A DNA stretch of 21,803 nt from a virus, in IMG/VR virus record IMGVR_UViG_3300049595_000548, positions 1 through 21,803 of that record. One strand, 5' to 3'. Below, one piece after another: positions 1,467 through 20,478 of the stretch. Each line of letters begins with the position of its first letter. Position 1 is the first letter of the stretch. The notes beneath the pieces are model-generated. The model did not search any database. It worked only from the letters and a program-made list of their open reading frames with translations, and was not told where the DNA came from. The position numbers and the translations under genes were made by a program.

Positions 1467-2468
1467 TTATTTCCTAAACCTTTGACTTTGTGATACAGAA
1501 ACAGATGCAATAGAAGCAATTTGAGTAACAACAATTGCGCCCACAACAACAGCCTGTGATTCCTCGCGTTGTTCTTGAGTCATATCAGAACCAACATTCA
1601 AAATCGCTTCTGTTGCTGCAAAAATTTGTGCAGCACCTGGTATATCTGCAAGCGCAGTTGGTATCTCTAATTCTATTGTATTTTCTGTAATGTAAAGCTC
1701 ATCAATTATTTGTTGTTCTTGCTCTACACTTAATTCAGGTTCTGCGATTGGAGTTTCAATTGTTTCTGGTTCAACTATTTGCTCAACTATCTCTGGTTCT
1801 AGCATTGCTGTCTGTGTCGGCTCTGGCGTTGGTAATGTCTCTGGAATTACCTCAACAAAAATCGCTTCGTCATTTGAGTTATCTGTTACTGGTTCTTGGG
1901 TTGGTAATGGCGTTGGTTCTTGTGTGGGGGTTGGTGTAGGTGAAACTTCTGTCGGTGTTGGTTCGGGTGTTGCGGTGGGAGATGGCTCACTTGTGGGAGT
2001 CGGCTCTACTGTCGGCTCTGGGGTTGTTGTTGGTGTTGGCGTGGCTGTTGGAATGGTTGTAACGCCAGACCAAGTTAAAAGATAACTACCTGTTGGTGTT
2101 TGAGTGTAATTACTTGCCATCCAAGCAAAAGAAGTAGCGCGAATAAAATAAAAACCTGTTTCAATAGGTGCTGTAATTATTGAAGCTAAAACATTTGTGC
2201 CAGAGTGCAGACCATCATCATCAGCTCTTAATTTTGTTGCACCTTGCCAAAGCTCAATCCAAGAATCAATAAACCCAGGATTAGTTTGAGGTGTTCCATT
2301 AGTTGTATATACAGTTAAAGTTGTTGGTTCTGTTGCCTCAACAGGAATATCAACATAAGGGGTTTGTGGGTCTAAAACAATAGTTGTTTCGTCAGCAAGC
2401 GCTGGAGACATAACAAAACCCAGTAAAAGTATTGAAAGAGTTAAGCGCAGTTTGGTGCGCCTAGTCAA
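1467..2468 (-). CDS. Secreted/membrane-anchored Pro/Thr-rich surface protein
   Basis: A 333-residue protein with a clear signal peptide: basic MTRRTKLR, a hydrophobic core and an ALA cleavage site at about 23-25. Residues 26-135 form a beta-rich domain resembling the bacterial pre-peptidase C-terminal (PPC) fold: WIELWQG, LRADDDG, ETGFYFIRA and GSYLLTW match the usual 'elyd.. Ddd .. aGtYyirv .. gsYtL' pattern. A Pro/Thr/Glu-rich stalk follows (about 139-245), then an acidic helical region and a C-terminal hydrophobic segment (306-326) ending in RFRK. This suggests export and anchoring with the PPC-like domain outside. No LPXTG motif is seen. The start is TTG, with GGAAG five bases upstream; the first internal ATG would destroy the signal peptide. 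It lies just after the endolysin gene. Superinfection exclusion or an accessory lysis role is possible but unproven. Confidence 0.75.
   Translation of the reverse strand: MTRRTKLRLTLSILLLGFVMSPALADETTIVLDPQTPYVDIPVEATEPTTLTVYTTNGTPQTNPGFIDSWIELWQGATKLRADDDGLHSGTNVLASIITAPIETGFYFIRATSFAWMASNYTQTPTGSYLLTWSGVTTIPTATPTPTTTPEPTVEPTPTSEPSPTATPEPTPTEVSPTPTPTQEPTPLPTQEPVTDNSNDEAIFVEVIPETLPTPEPTQTAMLEPEIVEQIVEPETIETPIAEPELSVEQEQQIIDELYITENTIELEIPTALADIPGAAQIFAATEAILNVGSDMTQEQREESQAVVVGAIVVTQIASIASVSVSQSQRFRK
1884..2054 (-). repeat. Degenerate Pro/Thr/Glu codon repeats
   Basis: This part of the surface protein gene encodes residues 139-195, built from degenerate TPTP, EPTP and SEPSP units. It forms an extended, probably unstructured stalk. 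At the DNA level it reads as recurring ggt/gtt/ggc triplets and could vary in length by slippage or recombination. The units are too short and irregular for a CRISPR array. Confidence 0.7.
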
Positions 2469-3460: not shown

Positions 3461-4141
3461 ATGAGCCAAATAACCTTTCGACCTATAAAAGATTTTGAAC
3501 ATATAGCAATACCACCAAAACCAGCAAAATTAGAAATTCCAAATTGGTACAAAGATATGCCAACCGACATCAACGACAAAGAATCTATTGATAGATTTAC
3601 TTCAAAAAGGTGTATGCCTTTATTAGACGGATTAACAAATGGTTATTACCTATATAACTATGCTGACATTCACGTCAAAGTTGAAAATGGTTGCTCTAAA
3701 TTACAATGGACTCATTCTTCACCAGTTATTGACACTCATCAGCGAAGCCAAGTACCTGGAGTTCCTTTACCAATAGGTTATTACAAAGATGAGGCTTTTA
3801 AATTTTTTAATCCAATTAGTATTCAAACACCAAAAGGGTACAGTTGTTTGTTTACACACCCTACTTTAAGATTTGATTTACCATTTTTTAGTTTTCCTGC
3901 AATTGTAGACACAGACGAATACAAAACAGCAGTTCATATACCCTTTTTAATAAAAAAGAATTGGACTGGAACTATCAAAAAAGGCACACCAATAATTCAA
4001 GTTTTTCCTTTTAAGCGTGAAGATTGGCAATCAGCTTACAAAGATGAAGCTGTTGATAACGATAAAATGATTTCATTTCTTAAAACTTTTATTCATAGTG
4101 CTTACAAGAAAACTTTTTGGCACAAAAAATACTTTAATTAG
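3461..4141 (+). CDS. DUF6065-like phage protein, lone plus-strand gene
   Basis: A 226-residue protein and the only plus-strand gene seen. The pattern matches a phage protein family I recall as DUF6065, seen in aquatic phages: PPKPAKLEIPNWYKDMP near the N-terminus, CMPLLDGLTNGYYL at about 51-64, GYSCLFTHPTLRFDLPF at about 126-142, VDTDEY at about 149-154 and GTPIIQVFPFKREDW near 175-189. The family has no function I can state with confidence. The start is ATG with a weak TAAGAA site. A poor promoter-like pair (TTGTGT 3426-3431, TAGCAT 3449-3454, 17-base spacer) lies upstream but would leave almost no leader. Its 3' end overlaps the oppositely directed glycine-rich gene by eight bases (TTAATTAG). 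The orientation suggests a later-acquired, separately transcribed gene. Confidence 0.75.
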   Translation: MSQITFRPIKDFEHIAIPPKPAKLEIPNWYKDMPTDINDKESIDRFTSKRCMPLLDGLTNGYYLYNYADIHVKVENGCSKLQWTHSSPVIDTHQRSQVPGVPLPIGYYKDEAFKFFNPISIQTPKGYSCLFTHPTLRFDLPFFSFPAIVDTDEYKTAVHIPFLIKKNWTGTIKKGTPIIQVFPFKREDWQSAYKDEAVDNDKMISFLKTFIHSAYKKTFWHKKYFN

Positions 4142-4973
4142 TATATTTAATAATCACAATTCCGTTGCCACCACGACCACCGCCAGTTGTTTGCTGACCA
4201 CCACGACCACCGCCAGAACCAGTACCATCTTTTCCTGAAGTTCCGTGTTGAGCAGGACCGTTTGCTGAACCAACCCATTGTCCACCAATACTTGAACCAC
4301 CTAAAGATGGTGTGCAATTGTAAGAGTTACCGCCACCACCGCCACCACCGCCAGCATAAAATAAAGAAGTTCCTGTAATCGAATACGCTAAACCTGCGCC
4401 ACCTGAACCGTTTTGTGTTTGACCTGTGTTGTTGCCAACTCCTCCAGCGCCTCCACCACCTCCAGCGCCACCACTTGTACCATTTTGTGCAACACCGTTG
4501 CCGCCTGCTGAACCTTGACCTGCTGTACCAGAACCGCCATTGTGTGCGTTGCCGCCGTTTCTAATTCCAGCGCCACCACCTGAGCCACCATTGCCACCAT
4601 TTTGACCACCATTGCCACCATAACCACCACCAACAGCAATTTGATTATCAAACTGGCTACTTCCACCTTGAGTATTTCCATTACCACCTGCACCGACTGT
4701 GATTGCGTAAGTTGTTCTTGGTGTAACTGTGTATGCAGCAGAATAAATTAAACCGCCAGCACCACCACCGCCACCTGCGATTCCAGTACTTGCTGCGCCT
4801 CCACCTCCACCACCAGCAACAACTAACAATTCAACAGCATTAACCCCACCAGGACAAAGAAAATTTCCATTTGCTGAAAAAGTTTCAACATAACTATTCA
4901 AGATTGGAGTATTGTTATATGTCAAAGATTTCTCAGACATAAAAGAATTAAACGAAAGCCTTTTTATACCCAT
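4134..4973 (-). CDS. Glycine-rich tail/adhesin protein (copy A)
   Basis: A 279-residue protein. A short N-terminal part (IKRLSFNSF) precedes a region starting with FLCPGGVNAVELLVVAGGGG that continues as almost uninterrupted Gly-rich sequence with Asn, Gln, Ser and Ala. It ends in GGNGIVIIKY. This is the phage 'glycine-rich domain' type found in tail fibres and adhesins, where Gly-rich runs can pack as polyglycine-II helices, as known for S16-type gp38 adhesins. The two hydrophobic beta strands at start (ELLVVAG) and end (IVIIKY) bracket the domain. It is a paralogue of the gene immediately upstream. A role in host recognition is inferred. The ATG at 4973 has a weak ribosome site but is supported by alignment of IKRLSFNSF with IKRFSRQNF in the paralogue. 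Confidence 0.82.
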   Translation of the reverse strand: MGIKRLSFNSFMSEKSLTYNNTPILNSYVETFSANGNFLCPGGVNAVELLVVAGGGGGGAASTGIAGGGGGAGGLIYSAAYTVTPRTTYAITVGAGGNGNTQGGSSQFDNQIAVGGGYGGNGGQNGGNGGSGGGAGIRNGGNAHNGGSGTAGQGSAGGNGVAQNGTSGGAGGGGGAGGVGNNTGQTQNGSGGAGLAYSITGTSLFYAGGGGGGGGNSYNCTPSLGGSSIGGQWVGSANGPAQHGTSGKDGTGSGGGRGGQQTTGGGRGGNGIVIIKYTN

Positions 4974-4982
4974 AACATAATC

Positions 4983-5825
4983 TTACTGTGTGTATTTCAA
5001 AATAATAATTCCATTACCGCCAGCAGCACCACCGTTACCCCCAGCGCCACCACCACCACCTAAACCATTTGTACCAGCATTTCCGCCAGCATTTCTATTT
5101 GAGTTTCCACCGCCACCTGTGCCACCTGCTCCAGTGTTTTGATTATTACCAGTAGTTCCACAACAACCAGCTCCACCACCTGCATAAGTTACAGATGAAC
5201 CAGAAATAGAATAAGCGATACCATTACCCCCATTTGTGCCACCGAGTTGATTACTGGTTTGACCAAAGTTACCAGCGCCACCGCCACCGCCACCGCCACC
5301 TGGACTGCCGTTTTGTGGGACAGAGTTACCCCCACCATATCCTTGACCTATCATCCAATAACCTGAATAGTGAACGTTTCCACCATTTGCAGCGCCACTT
5401 CCGCCACCTGAACCAGCGTTTTGTGAGTTGTTTCCGTTTGCGTAACCTGTGCTACCACTTCCACCGCCATAAGCAGTTTGGTCGCCAAAAATAGAACCGT
5501 TACCATTAGCACCACCACCACCACCAGTACCAACTGTGACTGTGTAACTTGTCGCATTTACTGGGAATGATGCATTATAAATAACTCCACCTGCTCCACC
5601 GCCACCACAACCAATATTTCCAGCACCATTAGCTCCGCCACCGCCACCGCCAACTAAAAGAATTTCAACAGTTCTTACGCCTTTTGGTCTTTGCCAAGTT
5701 GTCGTGCCAGAAGTAAAAGTTAAAAGTTGCGAGCCTTGAAAAGATAAAGATTCATCTTTTGGATTAAAAAAAGTGTTTGCCTCAGATGGGTGTATAAAAT
5801 TTTGCCTTGAAAATCTTTTAATCAT
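4983..5825 (-). CDS. Glycine-rich tail/adhesin protein (copy B)
   Basis: A 280-residue paralogue of the next gene downstream. The N-terminus (IKRFSRQNFIHPSEANTFF) is followed by LTFTSGTTTWQRPKGVRTVEILLVGGGG, a typical entry into the phage glycine-rich domain. A long Gly/Asn/Ser/Ala-rich region follows, with a Tyr/Trp-containing insertion VHYSGYWMIGQGYGG in mid-domain, ending in GGNGIIILKYTQ. Gly-rich loops are probably displayed at the tail tip for receptor contact (inference). The ATG at 5825 overlaps the stop of the upstream short gene by eight bases (ATGATTAA), so the genes are coupled. A Cys pair, AGCCG, lies late in the domain. The terminal strands match copy A better than the loops do, a pattern expected if loops evolve faster. 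Confidence 0.82.
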   Translation of the reverse strand: MIKRFSRQNFIHPSEANTFFNPKDESLSFQGSQLLTFTSGTTTWQRPKGVRTVEILLVGGGGGGANGAGNIGCGGGGAGGVIYNASFPVNATSYTVTVGTGGGGGANGNGSIFGDQTAYGGGSGSTGYANGNNSQNAGSGGGSGAANGGNVHYSGYWMIGQGYGGGNSVPQNGSPGGGGGGGGAGNFGQTSNQLGGTNGGNGIAYSISGSSVTYAGGGAGCCGTTGNNQNTGAGGTGGGGNSNRNAGGNAGTNGLGGGGGAGGNGGAAGGNGIIILKYTQ

Positions 5826-6839: not shown

Positions 6840-7109
6840 TTATGCTCCCATTAAAAGAAAATTTGTTTCAAAACCGCTTGAACCGCCACCACCAGAGGTA
6901 AAAGCTACCCAAGCAACTCCATTATATGTGTATAGCGTGGAATCATCAGTTAGGTAAGCAAACATTCCTTGTGATGGGGTTGGAATTGCTGAGCTTCTTG
7001 CAGCAGTTCCAGCGAATACCATTATTGACTGGTCTTGCAAATAACCTTGAACTTGAGCAGCCGTTAAAATATCGCCTGCTGTAAACGTTTTTCTACCTAA
7101 ACCTGGCAT
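6840..7109 (-). CDS. Small minor tail protein
   Basis: An 89-residue protein with the recurrent phage pattern FTAGDILTAAQVQGYLQDQS, MVFAGTAARSSAIPTPSQGM and AYLTDDSTLYTYNGVAWVAF. The block 'AGd.LTA..v...l.dQsvm.Fa...aR..aiptP.eGm.ayl.D...l..YnG.aWv' occurs in tail fibre or tail-tip proteins, often as the head of longer fibres. Here it stands alone and ends in a GGGGSSG linker and a short tail, so it could be a trimmed adaptor for a receptor-binding protein. AAAGGA precedes its ATG. The 39-base gap upstream (7110-7148) contains only short weak inverted repeats (for example TAAGAT/ATCTTA) and no clear terminator. Confidence 0.75.
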   Translation of the reverse strand: MPGLGRKTFTAGDILTAAQVQGYLQDQSIMVFAGTAARSSAIPTPSQGMFAYLTDDSTLYTYNGVAWVAFTSGGGGSSGFETNFLLMGA

Positions 7110-12132: not shown

Positions 12133-12540
12133 CTAGTCTGCGTAGCAAAGAACTGTAAACTCTGCTGTTAGATATGTTACCTCACCAACAGGTAGTTGGC
12201 CGTAGTTTCTCATCTCACTAACTCTTGTATCGAACACAACTCCACCAAGAGTTTTGTCACCCTCAATTGCTCGTTTGATGCTTGAAGTGCCTGTGCTTGA
12301 AACATAGGCATCAAGATTTGATTGCGCAGTTCTTTCATCTACCCTGCCAACAATGACAAGGACATTGAAAACATAAGTCTGCATTCCTCTTTTGAAAGTG
12401 TCGTCATAAGAAACACTTGATGGCATAACAACAGCAATAGGTGGATTTGGATTATCTGGCATAAAAGCTGAAGTTCTTAAACCTGCGATAGTTCCAAGTC
12501 TTGTTGCAAGCCCAGTTCTAATTGAGGATACGGATGCCAT
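12133..12540 (-). CDS. Tail terminator-like protein
   Basis: A 135-residue protein with SSIRTGLATRLGTIAGLRTSAFMPDNPNPPIAVVMPSSVSYDDTF, then MQTYVFNVLVIVGRVDERTAQSNLDAYVSSTG, and a last strand TYLTAEFTVLCYAD. Helix-then-strands with a central 'v.v.v...d...aq..ld' and a C-terminal '..y.a..f.v.v.' strand are typical of siphophage tail terminator/neck proteins, which stop tube growth and join the tail to the head. The position before the tube gene agrees. The ATG shares one base with the connector's stop (TAATG). Distinction from a head closure protein is by pattern only. Confidence 0.75.
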   Translation of the reverse strand: MASVSSIRTGLATRLGTIAGLRTSAFMPDNPNPPIAVVMPSSVSYDDTFKRGMQTYVFNVLVIVGRVDERTAQSNLDAYVSSTGTSSIKRAIEGDKTLGGVVFDTRVSEMRNYGQLPVGEVTYLTAEFTVLCYAD

Positions 12541-13145
12541 TAAATAAAGTTTCTCAATCTTCTGTAAGGCATTACAAGTTGTGCAACGTCTGGGTCAAGT
12601 TGTGATGAAACACGGATAGCACCAAGGTCACCAAAACCTGCAACACCTAAAGGACTGTCTAAACGTTTGTAAATTCTTGATGACTGGATAACGCAAGCCT
12701 GTTTAATTGCGATAGGTACAGATGGCCAACCATAAGTTCCTTGAACTTTGATTAACGCTTCTCCACCCTCAATAGGCCACAGGTAGTCGCCAACAGCACG
12801 GATTGTTGTAAAAGGCCAAGGAATGCCATCAAGAACACCATTCAAAGGTTCAAGTTGGTAATCATCAGTTCCCCAAGTGGTATCAAAAACACCATCAGCG
12901 TCTTGAGCTGTTGTGATTGTTACTGTTCCGTTTGCAAGGTCGTCTACTTCTACAACAAAATCATCTTGGGCAACAAAGTATCTTGTAGCAGTTCCAGATG
13001 AATAAAATTGGCGTGCGGCATAGCCGTCTATAAGTCTTGATGCAGATTCAATTGCCATCTCTAAAAGAGAATCGTCAATAGAATCTGTGATGCGTAAGGC
13101 TGCTTTCACTTCGCTGAGTGAGGCATAGCCGTTTGTTATAGCCAA
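12540..13145 (-). CDS. Head-tail connector (HK97 gp6-like adaptor)
   Basis: A 201-residue protein beginning YASLSEVKAALRITDSIDDSLLEMAIESASRLIDGYAARQFY, the classic N-terminal helical domain of gp6-like adaptor proteins. A beta-rich insertion (YFVAQDDFVVEVDDLANGTVTITT) and a final IKQACVIQSSRIYKRLDSPLG helix follow. The usual ending is '...DPDV..Ll.pyrr', seen here as LDPDVAQLVMPYRRL. It forms the ring below the portal. The start is TTG at 13145, five bases after AGGAG, with no better ATG upstream. It is separated from the capsid gene by the glycan cassette, whereas related phages usually have these genes next to each other. Confidence 0.88.
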   Translation of the reverse strand: MAITNGYASLSEVKAALRITDSIDDSLLEMAIESASRLIDGYAARQFYSSGTATRYFVAQDDFVVEVDDLANGTVTITTAQDADGVFDTTWGTDDYQLEPLNGVLDGIPWPFTTIRAVGDYLWPIEGGEALIKVQGTYGWPSVPIAIKQACVIQSSRIYKRLDSPLGVAGFGDLGAIRVSSQLDPDVAQLVMPYRRLRNFI

Positions 13146-13171: not shown

Positions 13172-13684
13172 TTAGACTACTGGCTGACCCCAATGACCTT
13201 TATATTTAATGAGAAAGTCGTTCTCTAAAACTAGGTTGTTACGACCAAATAATACTTCTTTTCTTTTAGACTTTGCATCAGTCAAATTATCAAAAGCCAC
13301 ACGAACATTCTTTGCAGTTTGAGCATATTTTTGAGTCCAAGACAATTCCAATTCAATAACCTCTTTTTTATCTTTAGGGTAAGGAATATCAATTTGTTCT
13401 AAAACCTTGCGCTCATAAATACCTAAATACATTCCATAAATACCAGGGTCAATACTAAAAGCAATAGAACCTTTCTCGTCTAACATCTCAAAAAGTCGGT
13501 CATCTTTAACCACAACAGAATCAGCCAAATACATAAAACGTTCAATATTTGTATTCTTCATAATCCAATTGAACTTACCTAGCTCAAAAGTGAAATCAGA
13601 TAAAACTAAAACAGGTCTTTTAATTGAAGCCAAACATTGTGCCAGCCAGTTCTCTCGCCCTGGGGTTGTACCAACAACAATCAT
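13172..13684 (-). CDS. Glycosyltransferase-like protein, small
   Basis: A 170-residue protein. It begins MIVVGTTPGRENWLAQCLASI, like the first beta-alpha unit of GT2-type enzymes, and continues RPVLVLSDFTFELGKFNWIM and IERFMYLADSVVVKDDRLFEML, where LADSVVV takes the place of a DxD-type segment. SIAFSIDPGIYGMYLGIYER and a C-terminal GRNNLVLENDFLIKYKGHWG match a family I remember from actinophages, often labelled glycosyltransferase. It is shorter than a full GT-A domain, so it may be a minimal transferase or a partner protein. Its ATG overlaps the cytidylyltransferase stop by four bases (ATGA), tying it to the cassette. Catalytic activity is not certain. Confidence 0.7.
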   Translation of the reverse strand: MIVVGTTPGRENWLAQCLASIKRPVLVLSDFTFELGKFNWIMKNTNIERFMYLADSVVVKDDRLFEMLDEKGSIAFSIDPGIYGMYLGIYERKVLEQIDIPYPKDKKEVIELELSWTQKYAQTAKNVRVAFDNLTDAKSKRKEVLFGRNNLVLENDFLIKYKGHWGQPVV

Positions 13685-14106
13685 ATTTTTTGTTTAATCA
13701 ACGTACTAGAAATCCCTTTAGTGTAAGGAATGTAAATCAAACTAATGTTCCTTTCATCTAACCAATCTTGGTCAAACTGCATCTGCTTGTAATAATCTTT
13801 TCTTGCCCAATCAGAACCAATAGCAATGACATCAGGTTTGCAATCCTCAATAGCAGGCTTTGAATCAGCACCACCAATATTAGGAACAACAAAGTTTACA
13901 AACTTGCAAGCATCTAAAACAACAAAGCGTTCTTGATAATTCAAAATAGGTGTTGTCTTTTTGTATTCATAAATAAATTCATCTGTGTTAAGTGCAACAG
14001 TTACAGTTCCACCAATACCTGCAATCTCAGCGCAACGTTTCAGAAAGTTGATATGACCTGCGTGAAATAAATCAAAAGTGCCACCTGTATATACACGCAA
14101 TGCCAT
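13681..14106 (-). CDS. Cytidylyltransferase-like nucleotidyltransferase
   Basis: A 141-residue protein of the nucleotidyltransferase superfamily (TagD/RfaE C-domain/glycerol-3-phosphate cytidylyltransferase type). The ATP/CTP-binding motif GGTFDLFHAGHINFL is at about 8-22 with the HAGH signature at 15-18, VTVALNTDEFIYEYK follows, and the second signature ISST is at 132-135. The family joins a nucleotide to a phosphorylated sugar or polyol, making an activated donor such as an NDP-sugar or CDP-polyol; the substrate here cannot be told. It is likely to supply the donor for the neighbouring glycosyltransferases. The ATG shares one base with the radical SAM stop (TAATG), so expression of the two is coupled. 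Confidence 0.87.
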   Translation of the reverse strand: MALRVYTGGTFDLFHAGHINFLKRCAEIAGIGGTVTVALNTDEFIYEYKKTTPILNYQERFVVLDACKFVNFVVPNIGGADSKPAIEDCKPDVIAIGSDWARKDYYKQMQFDQDWLDERNISLIYIPYTKGISSTLIKQKI

Positions 14107-15047
14107 TACAAATCCTTTTGTTTAGGCATATCGCAAGAAGCACATTTGGAAAGAAATTTGCCCTCGGAATGATTCTTTCTAATCTCAACATAAAGAGGAC
14201 TATTAACAAGTTCTTTCAAACCTAAAGATTTAACATCACCAAGGTTGTAATCACCTTCATAATCTAAACAACACAAAGCAACAGTTCCATCCCAAAGAAC
14301 AGTCACACTCGACCAAAGCCTATGACAACGATAATGAGAAGTATCTTGACCAACAGCCCAGTTATGTAGCTCTATATCAATTCGTTTAGGAATATTTAAT
14401 GAAGCCAACCAATCCTTGAACTCTTTTTCCTCAGCTTCGTTTGACAAACCTGTTCGAATGTAATCAACGCTTAGAACATTCAAGTATTCAGGTTTATCTG
14501 CAACAAGTTTTTCAATATTGGCAAAATATTTTTCAACAGGAATACCAGGTCTAGTTTCGCTGAACTCTCTCTTAGGTGAAAGACTCAAGTTTACATCTGT
14601 GATTCCTGCTTCACCCCATTCATCTAAACGCTTGGCTGTAAGAGGCCAGCCGTTAGTATGAATATAAATCTTTGCGAAACCAACATTTCTTGCATATTTA
14701 GCGAAACCTGCAAGACGCTTATCCATAATAGGTTCACCAAAATTACGCAAATCAAGCATTTTGAAACCAAGTTCTGAAGCATCATCAAGAAGTTTCTTGA
14801 TAAGAGTTTCATCCATAAATCCTTTATCGCGTTCCATTGTCGGATGAGGACAAAACGTGCAAGCAAAGTTGCAATGATTAGTAGATTCAAGTCTTAAAAG
14901 AACATCCTCAAAAGATTTTAAGATTCCATCAACAGAATTACGTTTTTCATTCCAATTAGGTGGAAATTTGGCATCAACTTGTTCATAATCAAAAGATGCT
15001 CTGCGTTTAACTGCTGATTCGTGAATAAAAACTGAATTTAATCCCAA
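14106..15047 (-). CDS. Radical SAM protein with SPASM-like domain
   Basis: A 313-residue radical SAM enzyme. The 4Fe-4S site CX3CX2C is at Cys59, Cys63 and Cys66 (HCNFACTFCPHP), followed by the SAM-contact GEP at 104-106 and HTNGWP at about 130-135. The C-terminal part is SPASM-like: Cys241, VLWDGTVALCCLD (Cys259/260), NLGDVKSLGLKELVNSP and Cys302/Cys305 (KCASC), giving an auxiliary cluster. SPASM enzymes modify peptides, and others in the group act on sugars or other substrates. In a cassette with glycosyltransferases a sugar or glycan modification is likely but not shown. The start is TTG at 15047 with AGGAGA nine bases upstream, overlapping the GT2-like gene by ten bases; no ATG is in place. 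Confidence 0.85.
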   Translation of the reverse strand: MGLNSVFIHESAVKRRASFDYEQVDAKFPPNWNEKRNSVDGILKSFEDVLLRLESTNHCNFACTFCPHPTMERDKGFMDETLIKKLLDDASELGFKMLDLRNFGEPIMDKRLAGFAKYARNVGFAKIYIHTNGWPLTAKRLDEWGEAGITDVNLSLSPKREFSETRPGIPVEKYFANIEKLVADKPEYLNVLSVDYIRTGLSNEAEEKEFKDWLASLNIPKRIDIELHNWAVGQDTSHYRCHRLWSSVTVLWDGTVALCCLDYEGDYNLGDVKSLGLKELVNSPLYVEIRKNHSEGKFLSKCASCDMPKQKDL

Positions 15048-15676
15048 CCTAATCGTCTCCTACGTTTAATATCCCATTTTCCCTCAGAAAAATCCTGGTT
15101 GTTTATCTTTGAAGTGAAATATTGACTGTTTGCTGTGAAACTTAAATCGTTTTCTCTATGAAATCCAGCTTTAAGTGTAGATGAGTTGTCGTGAGCAATA
15201 GGAATAAAGGAACGTTCTATTCTGCAACCATTAAATTCTGCCCTGCGTTCATAATCTGTGTCCTCAAAATAAGCTGGAACAAAAGATTCATCAAATAACC
15301 CAACTTTTTCAACAATTTTTGAGCCGATACTAAAAGCACACCATTCTGGACTTCCATTTGAAAGCAATAAAGTGTCAGGATTTGATTGTTCAGCAAAAAG
15401 TTTTAGCGAATCACCACCCCATTCAATATCAAAGTTAGCAATCAACCAATAATCGCTGTTTGGGAGTGATTTGATTCCAAGATTCCAAGAAACAGGGACA
15501 CCAAGATTGCTTGGGAACTTCAAATGCCAAATCTTTGACACCCATTGATTCCAAGTCGGTGACCAATCTGATTGTTTTGCCCCATTATCAATAATGATTA
15601 AGTCTTTAACTGCATAGTTGATTGACCCAATCATCCTGTCTAAGAGGTCATATCTTGTTAAAACAGGCACAATCAT
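15038..15676 (-). CDS. GT2-like glycosyltransferase
   Basis: A GT-A fold transferase of 212 residues. MIVPVLTRYDLLDRMIGSI forms the first beta-alpha unit, DLIIIDNGA the second strand, NLGVPVSWNLGIK the typical loop, LIANFDIEW the metal-binding region (Asp83 to Glu85 in place of DxD), and VGLFDESFVPAYFEDTDYERRA the acceptor-side motif. All are in GT2 order. The enzyme would transfer a sugar from an NDP donor. The start is uncertain: I chose ATG 15676 because it begins exactly at the first strand, but it lacks a ribosome site; TTG at 15688 (GGGGA upstream) or 15703 would add 4 or 9 residues. The gene lies after the GT4 gene with a 53-base gap that also holds a five-codon mini-frame. Confidence 0.82.
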   Translation of the reverse strand: MIVPVLTRYDLLDRMIGSINYAVKDLIIIDNGAKQSDWSPTWNQWVSKIWHLKFPSNLGVPVSWNLGIKSLPNSDYWLIANFDIEWGGDSLKLFAEQSNPDTLLLSNGSPEWCAFSIGSKIVEKVGLFDESFVPAYFEDTDYERRAEFNGCRIERSFIPIAHDNSSTLKAGFHRENDLSFTANSQYFTSKINNQDFSEGKWDIKRRRRLGWD

Positions 15677-15729
15677 TGCTGGTATCAAGTTACTTATCCC
15701 CAATCATTAACTTCGCTAATTTTGCCCTT

Positions 15730-17004
15730 TTAAGCCTTTTTAGAGGCATCAGAAGCCACTCTGGCAAATATGCTGTCTAAAGTAGGTTTCCAATGCTTTT
15801 CGTAAACTAAATCAGCATCATATTGCTTAGCAAACTCAACAGCCTTTTGAGAAGTACCACGACCTCTGTTATACGCCTGTGTTAAAGCCTCAACTATTTC
15901 TGGAACAGATGGAATATGAAACCAAGATTTCTGTGGCGCATCCCAATATGGTTGCCCACTAATTTTCCAACCATCTTCTGCACAAAGTTCAGCAGAAGCA
16001 GCAAAATCGGAAACAATAACAGGAGTACCACACGCTTGCGCTTCAACAGTTGGAATACCAAAACCCTCACCCATACTTGTTGCTAATAAAACATCAATAT
16101 CAGAATATATGGCTGCAAGAATTTCTTGATTGATTCCAGCTCTTAACAAATAAGCATCAGGGAAAATAACTTTCTCAAGTGGAATACCACAAGACAAAAT
16201 TAAATCAGTCAATCTAATTCCACCCATAGAACCAGATGGGTCAGTATGCAAATACAAAACTGCATCATCATATTTTTTAGCAAACATAGAAAACGCCAAA
16301 AGGTTTTCACCAAACGCTTTACGAACAGGTGACACACCTTTGTTCGCTGCATTCATTCCAACAATAAATTTATCTTTACTAATTTTCATAAAATCGCGAC
16401 CAGTAAAAGTATCACCATTCGGAGTTTTGAAAGTTGGAGTTGGTTTGAAAACTTTTTCAATTCCGTGAGGAACATACCAAGATTCAATTCCAACATTCTC
16501 TAACATTGCTTTACCAAATTCGCTCATAGCAATTGGATAAACAAAAGGCAAACGACACCACGCAGCAACTTCAGGTGGTGCAGGAACGTGGTCAATCGGA
16601 GTCCAAGAAGCAACAGGGAACTCTGCCCACTTTTCACCTTTGAACACCCAAACATCAAACAAAGTCATCAATAAATGTTCAGCATCTTTATCACGTTGAG
16701 ACCAATCGTGCATATGTGCAGGAATGACATCATTAGACCATTGCTCCATCCCTCTTGGATAAACAGGGATTCCACCAGCAGGAGAGTTCCACATAGTTGC
16801 AGATGCCTCTAAACCATAGTTTGCAGCAACAGCAACTTCATTGCCGTCTGCTTTAAGTCTTGTTATCGCTTGAGCAGTTTGCTGACCATAACCAGTCGCA
16901 GCCCAAGGTGCATTAGAAACCCAGAGTATTCGTCTTGGGTGTTGTACAACATTTTGTACATTTTTATTTTGTTTTGCTAAAGCTCTTTTTTGTTCACGAT
17001 TCAC
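15730..17004 (-). CDS. GT4-family glycosyltransferase
   Basis: A GT-B fold retaining transferase of 424 residues. The N-terminal domain begins RILWVSNAPWAATGYGQQT, and the C-terminal domain carries FIVGMNAANKGV, YLHTDPSG and the EX7E signature GEGFGIPTVEAQACGTPVIV, the donor-binding motif of GT4 enzymes. The likely donor is a nucleotide sugar; the acceptor is unknown, and the capsid or tail proteins are candidates. Start: an ATG at 17016 has no close ribosome site, while GTG 17004 has GGAG six bases upstream and gives an N-terminus of MNREQKRALAK. I prefer GTG. The N-terminal 20 residues are very basic. This is the first gene of the cassette after the capsid gene and two stem-loops. Confidence 0.88.
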   Translation of the reverse strand: MNREQKRALAKQNKNVQNVVQHPRRILWVSNAPWAATGYGQQTAQAITRLKADGNEVAVAANYGLEASATMWNSPAGGIPVYPRGMEQWSNDVIPAHMHDWSQRDKDAEHLLMTLFDVWVFKGEKWAEFPVASWTPIDHVPAPPEVAAWCRLPFVYPIAMSEFGKAMLENVGIESWYVPHGIEKVFKPTPTFKTPNGDTFTGRDFMKISKDKFIVGMNAANKGVSPVRKAFGENLLAFSMFAKKYDDAVLYLHTDPSGSMGGIRLTDLILSCGIPLEKVIFPDAYLLRAGINQEILAAIYSDIDVLLATSMGEGFGIPTVEAQACGTPVIVSDFAASAELCAEDGWKISGQPYWDAPQKSWFHIPSVPEIVEALTQAYNRGRGTSQKAVEFAKQYDADLVYEKHWKPTLDSIFARVASDASKKA

Positions 17005-17029
17005 GCAGGACTCCATAAGAACGCAGGGT

Positions 17030-17057
17030 GTCTCCCACCTTATTACAGATGGGAGAC
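17030..17057. promoter_or_regulatory. Stem-loop in the capsid-GT4 gap, 1 of 2
   Basis: GTCTCCCACCT (17030-17040) and AGATGGGAGAC (17047-17057) pair over 11 positions with one mismatch, around the loop TATTAC. No T-run follows on the minus strand, so it is not a classical terminator. On the GT4 leader RNA it lies just before the gene's start and could limit readthrough, protect mRNA ends or act as an attenuator. Confidence 0.6.
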
Positions 17058-17068
17058 GAGTATGTCTA

Positions 17069-17092
17069 GGACACGGCCTGCGCTCCGTGTCC
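17069..17092. promoter_or_regulatory. Stem-loop in the capsid-GT4 gap, 2 of 2
   Basis: GGACACGG (17069-17076) and CCGTGTCC (17085-17092) form a perfect 8-base-pair GC-rich stem with an 8-base loop, about 28 bases after the capsid stop codon. It lacks a U-tract on the minus strand. It may stabilise the 3' end of the abundant capsid message, or pause transcription so that the cassette is expressed less than the capsid. Confidence 0.6.
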
Positions 17093-17119
17093 CAGAACTT
17101 TTTTCAAATCAGACTCGGA

Positions 17120-18304
17120 TTAGGAGTTTGCTGACTTGAAGTATTTAACGTGACTTGTTTGGATTAGGTTTCCATCCACGCGGAAAGTCGCACGGAAGGT
17201 AACTAAATCAGATGAGAAAGCAAAATCATCTGAGCGGTCCAACTTCAATCCACCAACTTGTCTTACATAATACGAAGGAAGATTTCCGAATAACACGGGC
17301 TTAGCTGCTGATGCTGCTGAAGCCATTGCTGGGTTTTCGAATATTGGATAACCAAGTAGCAAGTCGCGAGCATCTGCTGAAAGAGATGGTGTGAACAAGT
17401 ATTGTCCAGCGTTATCTTTCAACTTACGCACGTTTGCAATAGATGCAGAGTTCATTTGGAAACCAGTTCCTGGAAGTCTGCGACCCATTGTGTCAATGCT
17501 GTAAACAAGGTCAATCAAGTTATCAGCAGTTGGATTTAATGCAGTTCCAGTTACAGCAGAACCTGCACGGTTTACAATTCCGTTTGGTTGTACTGTTCCT
17601 GTGCCTATTGTTAAGGCTTCGTTTACTGCGTAACCCATTGCGTTACCTGTTTGAGCTGCTAAGAAACCAAGAATATCTACGCCAGCATCTTCAATCAATT
17701 CGCGTGAAACTTGGGTCAAGAATGAGTACTTGAATGCACCAAGAGTTACGAAAGAGTTGAATGTTGGGTCAGATTCTCCGATTGCGTTGCCCTCTGAAGT
17801 TACAGTTCCAGTTGAGTATGCACTCAATGATGGAATTTGTAGGTTTTCGCCACCAGCTGTATTCAAGATGGTTGAGGTTTCTAGCATTGGGCCAACTGTT
17901 CTAGCCAACATAATTACTTGGTCATAGAAAGAAGTTGGAACTGGTGAACCAGTTGAACCCTTAGTTACATCACGCTTTTCGAAATCGTATGAACGGATTT
18001 CACCGCGTGCCATAGCACGGATTGCTTCTGCATCATCTTTTTCGTTGCGTACTTCTGCAACTGGGCGTGCTTGGTTTTCTAAACCTTTCATTGCTTCAGC
18101 AGCGCGAAGTTCGCGGTCTGCATCTGCTTTTAAGGTTTCGATTACCTTTGCGCGTGAATCTAGGTCAGCAGAAATACGTTCGTATTTTGCGTTTTCCTCA
18201 GCAGTTAAATCGCGCTTTTCTGCTGCTGCTCCGTCAAGAAGTGCTTTGGCTTCTGCCCAAGCATTTTGACGTGCTTCGTGCTGTTGTTTAATGTATTCAG
18301 ACAT
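17120..18304 (-). CDS. Major capsid protein (HK97 fold)
   Basis: A 394-residue HK97-type capsid protein. Residues 3-75 are a charged coiled-coil delta domain (NAWAEAKALLDGAAAEKRDLTAEE), normally removed by the prohead protease; the mature chain probably begins at about 100-115. The mature part has STGSPVPTSFYDQVIMLARTVGPMLETS, then LSAYSTGTVTSEGNAIGESDPTF, the FKYSFLTQVSRELIEDAGVDILGFLA spine helix region, and the C-terminal GNLPSYYVRQVGGLKLDRSDDFAF...FRATFRVDGNLI, all typical of the family. It forms the icosahedral shell. An AAGGAG site lies directly before the ATG. The gene stands between a terminator-like hairpin upstream and two stem-loops downstream, so its message level may be set separately. 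Confidence 0.95.
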   Translation of the reverse strand: MSEYIKQQHEARQNAWAEAKALLDGAAAEKRDLTAEENAKYERISADLDSRAKVIETLKADADRELRAAEAMKGLENQARPVAEVRNEKDDAEAIRAMARGEIRSYDFEKRDVTKGSTGSPVPTSFYDQVIMLARTVGPMLETSTILNTAGGENLQIPSLSAYSTGTVTSEGNAIGESDPTFNSFVTLGAFKYSFLTQVSRELIEDAGVDILGFLAAQTGNAMGYAVNEALTIGTGTVQPNGIVNRAGSAVTGTALNPTADNLIDLVYSIDTMGRRLPGTGFQMNSASIANVRKLKDNAGQYLFTPSLSADARDLLLGYPIFENPAMASAASAAKPVLFGNLPSYYVRQVGGLKLDRSDDFAFSSDLVTFRATFRVDGNLIQTSHVKYFKSANS

Positions 18305-18411: not shown

Positions 18412-18594
18412 TTAACGTATCTCTTTTACTTCTTGAATCCTTGTTTCTTTAACAGGTTCAAACTTTTTTGTTTCAACTGGTTTATCAATATTGATTACAG
18501 CTTCAGCCATAGCATCTGCTAAATCAGCAATGATTCCTGCTTCTGGATAACCTGCTGTTTTAAGAATTGCGTCTTTAACTTTTGCCTTATCCAT
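18412..18594 (-). CDS. Small protein between protease and capsid genes, 60 aa
   Basis: A 60-residue protein. The N-terminal half is helical (MDKAKVKDAILKTAGYPEAG), then IADLADAMAEAVINIDKPVE and a charged, disordered-looking C-terminus ending VKETRIQEVKEIR. Small proteins of this type occur between protease and capsid genes in actinophages; I know no proven function. The ATG at 18594 is chosen over upstream non-ATG codons because AAGG lies nine bases before it and the gene then overlaps the protease stop by eight bases (ATGGATAA). It could take part in capsid assembly; it is too small to be a typical scaffold. Confidence 0.75.
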   Translation of the reverse strand: MDKAKVKDAILKTAGYPEAGIIADLADAMAEAVINIDKPVETKKFEPVKETRIQEVKEIR

Positions 18595-20209
18595 TGTGAG
18601 TCGCCTTGAAAAGTAAATCAAGATGCTTACGTTTAATTTCTAATGAAGCTAGTTCGTCTTTCACGATTTCGTCAATCATTGAGATTGGCTCAATAGGTTG
18701 CGCATCAGCCATTGGTGAGTCCTTTCGTAATTTTGAAACGATTTCTATTATTAAATCTGCTTGGTCACCTGATAATGGTTCGCCATCCTCAAGTTTTCCA
18801 ATAACAAAATCCAACATATCGGCATCCATACCAAGGACTTGTGCCAAGGTATCTAATGAACGAACTGAAGCAGTTGTTGCTTCGTATGCTGGAAATCCTG
18901 TAACAATAGAAACTTCGTGTAAACGAATTTCTTTTAATTCTCTTGTTGTTCCATCAGCAGACCAAGAATCTCCGCCAGATGGTACTGAGAAACCAAAAGA
19001 CATTGCGTGAACATCTCCACGTTTCATAAGCACAGCCAAATCGCGACCTGCTGTTGTATCAGGCAAAGTTGCTTCAGCAAGCAAACCTTTTGAATCTTCT
19101 GTAAGTCTTAAAGTTTTTGAGCGAGTAGATGCAAGCACTTCATCCATATTGTGATTCTTGAAAAGTTTTACTTCGTTGCGTGATTTAAGTGAACGTTTGA
19201 AAGCGTTTGGCATAATTCGTTCGATAAAAGGAAGTGGCTCAGAGTCGCTGTTAAATACTGCGGCATAACCAGTAAATCTCATACCATCTGCTTCAGCGTT
19301 TTCAACTCTTAATTCAAAATCAACATCTGTTTTAATACGTCTTTCAACTTTATTCACGTTGTTTTCCTTATCTGTCTTATTTGATTTTACATTGATACTT
19401 AACCACCTAGATTTATTTTCTTCGGCATCTAATTGATTAACAACTTTTTGGGCATAATCTAAAGTTCTTTGCGCTGCAAGTTTGGATGGGCCACTTCCCC
19501 AAAGTAAATGAGCTACAAGCCCAGCACCAGGATATTCGGGGTCATCAGAATTACTGTTCTTTGGCGCATCTAAATCAACAAGATGACGAGCAATCCAAGG
19601 AGCAATCCTGCGCCACTTATCCTCAGACACACGACCATCAGCCATATCTCTTGCTTCTTGTTTAGTTTTATCAGTTAAACCATCTCCACCAAAACCTTGA
19701 CGATTGTATTCAAGACCTTTACGAGCAGCTTCACGCATATAAGCTGGTGGCGATATATTTACTTGACGTTCTTGGTCATCATCTGAAGTGTTCTCAGGTA
19801 AATCATCAATCTTAGTTAATGTAGAAAATTTGTGACCTACAAGAGTTTCTGTTTCATTCCAACCATTACCTTGTGGTCTATAAATTCTGATTAAAGCAGC
19901 AGGGTCATCAGGTGTAGCTTGAATAGAAAAATCTGATTCAGGAACTCCAAGAGTTCCCTCTTTCATAACATATTCGATACGACCACGAGCACGACCACCA
20001 CTAGAGTTCCAAGATACAAAATCGCCCTCTTTTAATTCACCTGGTTTAGCGCGTTCTCCACCTGGTTCAATTTCTTCAGCAATAGAAACAGCAACCATCT
20101 GGTCAATTGCATCTTGTTTAGTTGTATGGCAACCAATAACTTCGCCATCTTCTTTGACAGTTGCCCAACCTGAACAATCAGGTGATGAATCAGTTATGAA
20201 ATAAGGCAT
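18587..20209 (-). CDS. Multidomain prohead protease (HK97/S78 type)
   Basis: A 540-residue protein from ATG 20209, which shares one base with the preceding stop (TAATG). A TTG 15 bases upstream is less likely. Domains: residues 10-45, a short CSGWATVKEDG/GCHTTKQDA unit; about 62-115, a small beta domain resembling DUF2945/Hva1-Tudor (GDFVSWNSSGGRARGRIEYV); about 150-265, a helical domain (SPPAYMREAARKGLEYNRQG, ARDMADGRVS, GLVAHLLWGSG) that I have seen fused to phage proteins; about 288-450, the S78 prohead protease with His353 (FKNHN) and Ser404 (HAMSFGF) as the probable catalytic residues and LHEVSIVTGFPAYE as the conserved end. The protease cuts the capsid delta domain. HK97's own protease is about 225 residues, so some 290 N-terminal residues are additional. 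Confidence 0.92.
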   Translation of the reverse strand: MPYFITDSSPDCSGWATVKEDGEVIGCHTTKQDAIDQMVAVSIAEEIEPGGERAKPGELKEGDFVSWNSSGGRARGRIEYVMKEGTLGVPESDFSIQATPDDPAALIRIYRPQGNGWNETETLVGHKFSTLTKIDDLPENTSDDDQERQVNISPPAYMREAARKGLEYNRQGFGGDGLTDKTKQEARDMADGRVSEDKWRRIAPWIARHLVDLDAPKNSNSDDPEYPGAGLVAHLLWGSGPSKLAAQRTLDYAQKVVNQLDAEENKSRWLSINVKSNKTDKENNVNKVERRIKTDVDFELRVENAEADGMRFTGYAAVFNSDSEPLPFIERIMPNAFKRSLKSRNEVKLFKNHNMDEVLASTRSKTLRLTEDSKGLLAEATLPDTTAGRDLAVLMKRGDVHAMSFGFSVPSGGDSWSADGTTRELKEIRLHEVSIVTGFPAYEATTASVRSLDTLAQVLGMDADMLDFVIGKLEDGEPLSGDQADLIIEIVSKLRKDSPMADAQPIEPISMIDEIVKDELASLEIKRKHLDLLFKATHNG

Positions 20210-20478
20210 TAGAGAACCTGCCAAGAAACGTGTAAAGAATGGTTTGAATCAGAAATTGCCCATAAAGAATTACCTGGTTGTAAAACCATTTGATAATCGT
20301 CAGCATTGTCTAAATGTATTCCATTAGAAGTAGTGACTGCACTTGAACCACCAAACCAAATATATTGATTTGATTGCTTCTGAGCATTATGCAAAATTAT
20401 TTGAGTTGGATTAGTTTGAGGAGCAATGATTTGAACGGCTGCTGTGCCAACTGTGAATTGCGCTGTTTGAAAAGTCAT
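20209..20478 (-). CDS. Small beta-rich structural protein, 89 aa
   Basis: An 89-residue protein, mostly beta strand by pattern: FQTAQFTVGTAAVQI, PTQIILHNAQ, NQYIWFGGSSAVTTSNGIHL, DYQMVLQPGNSLWAISDSN and a final LHVSWQVL. The series 'g..v.lhN.....vyiGgs.vtts.G..l......l...pgd.lyai......v.v...' is recurrent in actinophage virion gene clusters. No biochemical role is known to me; a decoration or head-associated protein is plausible from its place between portal and protease. It shares one base with both neighbours (TAATG on each side), indicating strict translational coupling. Confidence 0.75.
   Translation of the reverse strand: MTFQTAQFTVGTAAVQIIAPQTNPTQIILHNAQKQSNQYIWFGGSSAVTTSNGIHLDNADDYQMVLQPGNSLWAISDSNHSLHVSWQVL

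Follow-up and report, generated by a model that had tools for sequence, protein, structure and literature searches.

A candidate virion-glycan island with an optional radical SAM gene and a structured RNA leader between the capsid and connector genes of an IMG/VR phage

Gene content of the capsid-connector interval

The window analyzed in this work is a stretch of 21,803 bases, the IMG/VR phage record IMGVR_UViG_3300049595_000548, in which the minus strand carries nearly all genes. Between the gene for the major capsid protein (MCP) and that for a gp6-like head-tail connector it holds five intact minus-strand open reading frames (ORFs) at 13172-17004, as a first-pass annotation of this DNA had claimed. 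Read from the capsid side, they encode a GT4 glycosyltransferase, a GT2-like glycosyltransferase, a radical S-adenosylmethionine (SAM) protein, here called rSAM, a cytidylyltransferase-like protein (CyT) and a small protein, gtX; a structured RNA element precedes them (Table 1). Pfam bore out the families proposed earlier for GT4, rSAM and CyT. The GT2 call comes from phrog_29879 only, and the gene is 42% identical to one annotated as GT2 in the cultured Pontimonas phage phiPsal1. The fifth protein matched no sequence family and was placed among the GT-A enzymes by its fold model.

The GT4 start is a GTG at 17004 that is backed by the relatives, one of which (contig L076) has an ATG at that place. 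The overlaps described earlier between the genes are there: a TTG within the preceding stop region at the GT2/rSAM seam, TTGGGATTAA (15038-15047), TAATG between rSAM and CyT (14106), and ATGA between CyT and gtX (13681-13684). GT4 and GT2, instead, are separated by a gap of 26 bp. In a comparison with contig L006, each of the five genes shows purifying selection (dN/dS 0.025-0.19).

Table 1. Features of the capsid-connector interval and its borders
Feature	Position	Strand	Evidence or remark
Major capsid protein, HK97 fold	17120..18304	-	PF05065 3.5e-55, phrog_10; upstream border of the island
Structured RNA element, cassette leader	16999..17119	-	Fold, covariation, conserved loop (121 nt)
RNA hairpin 1	17065-17096	-	Invariant loop AGCGCAGG at 17077-17084
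RNA hairpin 2	17030-17057	-	
CCTGCG copy 1	17022-17027	-	
CCTGCG copy 2	17004-17009	-	Overlaps first base of GT4 start codon
GT4 glycosyltransferase, constant	15730..17004	-	PF13692/PF00534, phrog_2170 2e-37; GTG start at 17004
GT2-like glycosyltransferase, constant	15038..15703	-	phrog_29879 4.3e-42
Seam TTGGGATTAA, GT2 stop overlapping start of next gene	15038..15047	-	Module junction
Radical SAM protein (rSAM), Twitch-type auxiliary domain, optional	14106..15047	-	PF04055 1.3e-10, PF13186 2.3e-14
CyT, HxGH cytidylyltransferase-like, accessory	13681..14106	-	PF01467 7.4e-16
gtX, minimal GT-A glycosyltransferase-like, 170 aa, accessory	13172..13684	-	AlphaFold model and fold match
gp6-like head-tail connector	12540..13145	-	PF05135 2.8e-06, phrog_442 1.4e-18; downstream border of the island

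Occupancy of the site in related phages

Related contigs were fetched by an alignment of the capsid protein (A1), that is, independently of cassette content; they are fragmentary IMG/VR records. Counts were based on the 43 contigs with a whole capsid-to-connector interval, leaving out duplicates and phiPsal1. GT4 and GT2 were present together in 43/43 of these intervals and none (0/43) was empty, and in phiPsal1, too, the site holds GT4, a methyltransferase and GT2. These results overturn the earlier statement that the place is usually empty in related phages. Only capsid relatives at a far greater distance, for example Streptomyces phage Shawty (32% MCP identity), had no cassette and an adaptor gene directly after the capsid gene.

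What varied among the 43 intervals was the accessory set, in about ten combinations whose types were assigned by Pfam. Two extra GT2-like genes with a methyltransferase were the set in 15 intervals, CyT and gtX without rSAM in 13, and an NAD epimerase with a methyltransferase in 6, whereas rSAM, CyT and gtX stood together in 3 intervals besides the window; CyT and gtX are thus commoner without rSAM (14 intervals in all) than with it. Single intervals had one methyltransferase, a GT17 gene inserted between CyT and gtX, or other sets. The accessories seen are sugar-modifying types, namely methyltransferases, NAD epimerase, extra GT2s and GT17. The site is therefore normally occupied in this phage group, and its only unusual part is the rSAM gene, carried by a minority. 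To that extent the earlier view of the radical SAM partner as unusual holds, but rSAM cassettes beside glycosyltransferases have already been described in pelagimyophages (PMC7029224).

Exchange and linkage of the modules

Module swaps can be read directly from the contigs. The alignment of the window with L022 (89%) stops where GT2 ends and resumes at the first base after the rSAM gene, so that the difference in content over the aligned stretch is exactly the rSAM gene; the gene is also cleanly absent in L026. Against L025, with flanks 96% and 92% identical, rSAM, CyT and gtX are replaced by one methyltransferase. In both L022 and L025 synteny breaks at the seam TTGGGATTAA, the GT2 stop, and relatives use this seam, or one much like it, with rSAM, CyT, U0, U4 or U7 following it. 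A capsid tree with 57 rows requires at least 15 changes of accessory type and 4 of the rSAM label; starred branches by themselves already force those 4. Because rSAM is a clean, separable insert, CyT and gtX would work without it in most relatives.

The same five genes lie together, intact, in other phage backgrounds (L008-L010), with rSAM 75-76% identical, which agrees with the earlier claim of a coupled unit. A recent arrival of rSAM in this comparison was considered and rejected, because rSAM is no less diverged from L010 at synonymous sites (0.71) than the other four genes are (0.59-0.67). A survey of relatives for co-occurrence, which the first-pass annotation had proposed, thus found the genes linked and not scattered; in place of a set of five, it showed a constant GT4 and GT2 with swappable accessories. 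Taken together, these sequence data support a coupled, glycan-type unit of that composition.

A close cellular source was not found in two scans of cellular-genome contigs. Alignment A2 gave no matches, and alignment A6 gave only relatives of 23-29% identity, mostly from Rhizobiales, with few weak cassette matches among their neighbors (a CyT-like gene in L159 and, in five further loci, genes resembling GT2 or GT4).

The radical SAM protein

The motif CNFACTFC of rSAM is the CX3CX2C of a SAM cluster, and its three cysteines are invariant in ten family members, down to 22% identity. In the same members the auxiliary cysteines C241 and C259 are invariant and C302 and C305 nearly so. The earlier label, radical SAM/SPASM, therefore stands for the domains called by Pfam (PF04055, PF13186), but by its four cysteines the auxiliary domain is of the Twitch type and not a full SPASM domain.

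A structure-based search had also been proposed, and it was run for rSAM and for gtX. The best relative of rSAM in the Protein Data Bank (PDB) was BtrN, 2-deoxy-scyllo-inosamine dehydrogenase (4M7T), by profile (2.8e-12), by Foldseek with the predicted model (3.2e-12), and by VIA-align, where it came first with Z 21.0 and rmsd 2.6 A over 218 residues of core and auxiliary domain, at 24% identity; the next match had Z 18.2. BtrN shares with rSAM the CX3CX2C core and a four-cysteine Twitch domain, and one of its cysteines aligns with C259. It differs in being an enzyme of an aminoglycoside pathway. BtrN is a two-electron dehydrogenase that oxidizes the hydroxyl of an aminocyclitol, and its auxiliary cluster probably accepts an electron (PMC9012708). 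Given this best match and the four auxiliary cysteines, oxidation of a sugar or polyol appears the likeliest reaction of rSAM. A radical modification of either sugar or protein had been suggested before; the cysteines and the match to BtrN favor the first of these, in the form of an oxidation, although they are not proof.

We also considered that rSAM might modify a side chain of a virion protein, like the maturases of ribosomally synthesized and post-translationally modified peptides (RiPPs) or of anaerobic sulfatases, with the glycosyltransferases acting separately or on the modified residue. SuiB, ChlB and anSME, whose substrates are peptides or proteins, are indeed the next fold neighbors, but BtrN is clearly first, the four auxiliary cysteines are not the full SPASM set, and the neighbors of rSAM in most close relatives are sugar-handling genes. 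Moreover, no family match beyond the rSAM and SPASM domains was obtained at curated cut-offs in Pfam and NCBIfam. We regard this alternative as improbable.

The same rSAM family occurs outside the five-gene set. L106 has it with neither CyT nor gtX, and encodes a protein that resembles a sugar nucleotidyltransferase on inspection of its sequence. In L012 and L014 the rSAM gene overlaps a gene for a 2-oxoglutarate (2OG)-Fe(II) oxygenase, with short-chain dehydrogenase/reductase (SDR) and tetrapyrrole-methylase-like genes nearby; judged from the genes, this is another oxidative module, without CyT. Separately, an ORF of phrog_7084, alone on the plus strand of the window (3461-4141), has homologues (33-36% identity) in the rSAM-bearing loci L010-L013.

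CyT and gtX

CyT has the HxGH nucleotidyltransferase motif in the form FHAGH and aligns over its full length with glycerol-3-phosphate cytidylyltransferases, the signature of which is RTxGIS(T/S)T. For gtX, searches of Pfam and phrog matched no sequence family, and its assignment comes from an AlphaFold model (pLDDT 86.6). The predicted fold is a minimal GT-A domain; the best match was 6p61 (Z 10.2), followed by TarP (9.8) with many GT-A rows close behind, and the model has viral look-alikes in BFVD, including a Che8 glycosyltransferase. Of a DxD motif, only D55-S56 is invariant in 16 homologues, and there is no second Asp.

A covarying RNA element at the capsid-GT4 junction

The 121-nt element starts directly behind the capsid stop, ends a little beyond the GT4 start codon, and folds far better than its shuffles (z -4.87). 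Hairpin 1 is paired in 99.7-100% of alignment cells (35 distinct sequences). Covariation was observed directly: over the whole structure, double changes affect 14/29 pairs, as compared with 4.9 in shuffles, and the value is far above that of slid controls. G-U variants and one-sided G-C/G-U changes are common in the stems, which points to pairing in RNA rather than in DNA. The alignments are imperfect for the most divergent members, and the MAFFT alignment of hairpin 1 is poor in L078, L085 and L091, most of whose cells there are gaps.

The hexamer CGCAGG within the loop AGCGCAGG is complementary to the hexamer at the GT4 start codon in 44/45 distinct sequences; in the window the latter hexamer has the first base of the codon as its last. 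Most sequences (92.4% of cells) have a second complementary copy after hairpin 2, so that two alternative long-range pairings are possible. The complementarity of loop and start suggests a translational valve on the cassette.

Rfam 15 gave no match in the window, its best score in the region being 15.1 bits against a threshold of 67. Among the matches listed for a covariance model, the element occurs only at the MCP-GT4 junction of this phage group; the model did not find it in L008-L010, phiPsal1, Synechococcus phage S-CBS4 or Microcystis phage Mae-JY09. Opposite-strand matches of the model (E 0.1-0.9) were disregarded as mirror images of the same hairpins. A scan of viral contigs for the loop with a short stem, using two patterns, returned mostly chance matches among those listed, of which the model confirmed four contigs already known and L322, in the same context. 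With more than 40 distinct sequences and strong covariation, the element is a candidate for a new family of cis-regulatory RNA.

Two other roles for the element were weighed. An intrinsic terminator was rejected, since no T run follows hairpin 1 and terminators were no more frequent than in shuffles. It is also possible, if doubtful, that the element acts not as a translational switch but as a DNA inverted repeat, a recombination site for the module swaps, or as a protector of the 3' end of the capsid mRNA. The arms of an inverted repeat do flank an invariant center of 8 bases, the element borders the variable island, and hairpins behind abundant mRNAs often protect them. Set against this are the many one-sided G-C/G-U changes, the swaps themselves, which happen behind GT2 and not at the element, and the retention, in nearly every sequence, of a start-proximal complement to the invariant loop.

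In phiPsal1 (L016), a long hairpin followed by a T run, terminator-like, lies between capsid gene and GT4 at about 6910-6978 on the plus strand. Such a hairpin would fit a shared requirement to keep the output of the cassette below that of the capsid gene.

A proposed pathway and its alternatives

We interpret the window as carrying a modular glycan island in its rSAM version, in which GT4 and GT2 put a core glycan on a virion protein, exchangeable enzymes decorate it, and an RNA limits translation; we give this reading a probability of about 0.5, and we infer its acceptor, donor, oxidation step and valve. Its site between the capsid and connector genes is fixed in a group of aquatic phages related to phiPsal1. 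During late expression, GT4 and GT2 most likely build a short core glycan, which the accessory set would extend or decorate. CyT may use CTP to activate a small phosphorylated sugar or polyol, which gtX may add, perhaps together with GT2, and the Twitch rSAM may, like BtrN, convert one of the hydroxyls of this residue into a carbonyl. Exchange of accessories, with the borders and GT4/GT2 kept, would then alter the chemistry of the virion surface. The structured RNA probably keeps translation of the cassette below that of the capsid gene, its loop pairing with the GT4 start-codon sequence.

Several observations weigh against this reading. CyT scores 77.8 bits against TIGR01518 (TagD), the cut-off of which is 165.4 bits, and it lies below every NCBIfam equivalog cut-off; it has YTKGISST, with a Tyr, invariant in 12 homologues, at the Arg position of the signature. 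The GT-A matches of gtX reach only modest Z, and enzymes acting on peptides and proteins come directly after BtrN in the fold ranking of rSAM. Members of this rSAM family (69-70% identity) stand in L011-L014 with neither CyT nor gtX, so the substrate of rSAM need not be a sugar linked to cytidine diphosphate (CDP). Lastly, the pairing of loop and start varies one-sidedly only (G-U), with no double changes, and we therefore put the switch forward as a hypothesis.

A virion protein seems the likeliest acceptor because the cassette lies in the structural block, none of the five proteins has a membrane or hydrophobic segment, no homologue of a thymidylate-synthase-type base-modifying enzyme or hydroxymethylase was found in nine related records, the complete phiPsal1 genome included, and mycobacteriophages offer a precedent. 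In these, the subunits of capsid and tail tube carry glycans added by phage glycosyltransferases (Freeman et al. 2023, as cited in PMC12619734).

The main rival explanation, which we consider unlikely though less so than the other acceptors or substrates discussed here, is that the cassette alters the surface of the host cell, as in superinfection exclusion, and not the virion. The hypervariable regions of pelagimyophages hold both glycosyltransferases and rSAM cassettes, and those glycosyltransferases have been read in this way (PMC7029224); in addition, the host genome of phiPsal1 encodes many cell-wall glycosyltransferases (PMC6106888). The position of the cassette, inside the structural block in all relatives, argues otherwise, as do the missing membrane segments and the lack of a Pfam match to the flippase-type proteins and membrane-bound transferases of serotype conversion, which gtr systems would need. 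Modification of phage DNA against host nucleases, a role proposed in the literature for glycosyltransferases of Nanopelagicales phages (PMC10202952), is very improbable here given the late structural position and the lack of thymidylate-synthase or hydroxymethylase homologues in the nine records.

A more far-reaching form of the virion-glycan reading is tentative: a swappable island ruled by a new RNA class, a pseudoknot-like switch that limits glycosyltransferase synthesis, in which the rSAM dehydrogenase of some members puts a carbonyl on a capsid or tail glycan. If true, that carbonyl would be a virion modification not described before. The window type and the L022 type form a matched pair with and without rSAM, which makes the role of this gene directly testable.

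Other genes in the window

Two tandem glycine-rich paralogues on the minus strand (4134-5825), 45% identical over 219 aa, are probably tail adhesins. The close relatives L006 and L007 gave no BLAST match to them at that place, and their upstream tail gene is only 56% identical. A Pro/Thr-rich protein of 333 aa with a hydrophobic C-terminal segment (1467-2468, minus strand) adjoins an M23-like peptidase and a putative holin, both recognized by sequence inspection. The prohead protease (18587-20224, minus strand) has a long N-terminal extension with an Hva1_TUDOR domain (PF11160).

Comparison with known systems

The closest known system is that of phiPsal1 (MG835450), which has the same location, a constant GT4 (44% identity) and GT2 (42%), and the same order of structural genes. 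It differs in having one opposite-strand methyltransferase as its accessory, without rSAM, CyT or gtX, and in having, at the place of the two-hairpin RNA, a hairpin followed by a T run that resembles an intrinsic terminator. Phage S-CBS4 has homologous GT4 and GT2 genes and a U5-type methyltransferase, a family also present in relatives of the window, but it belongs to another phage lineage and its cassette lies between portal and protease. Mae-JY09, likewise of another lineage, has a homologous GT4, a GT-like gene and an NAD epimerase adjoining the capsid gene. In neither S-CBS4 nor Mae-JY09 was rSAM, CyT or the RNA element found.

To the virion glycosylation of mycobacteriophages the window is linked by the resemblance of the predicted gtX fold to a Che8 glycosyltransferase. 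Its GT4 is not close to theirs by sequence, and modular swapping of accessories with rSAM is not reported for mycobacteriophages in the accessible part of the source. Among pelagimyophages, too, phages that resemble one another differ in having or lacking rSAM, and the region concerned carries glycosyltransferases as well. Pelagimyophages are, however, large myophages, with the region around the tail-fiber genes, GT8-type enzymes and no fixed capsid-connector island (PMC7029224).

Thus the location and the glycosyltransferase core are already known from phiPsal1, and rSAM genes are known in marine phages, also in regions bearing glycosyltransferases, whereas the fixed modular island, the clean insertion or deletion of rSAM and the RNA element appear to be undescribed in the open-licence literature searched. 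The island reveals, down to the base pair, a way in which phages of aquatic bacteria may vary their surface chemistry, by exchanging sugar-modifying enzymes at one fixed site while the capsid and the transferase core are kept.

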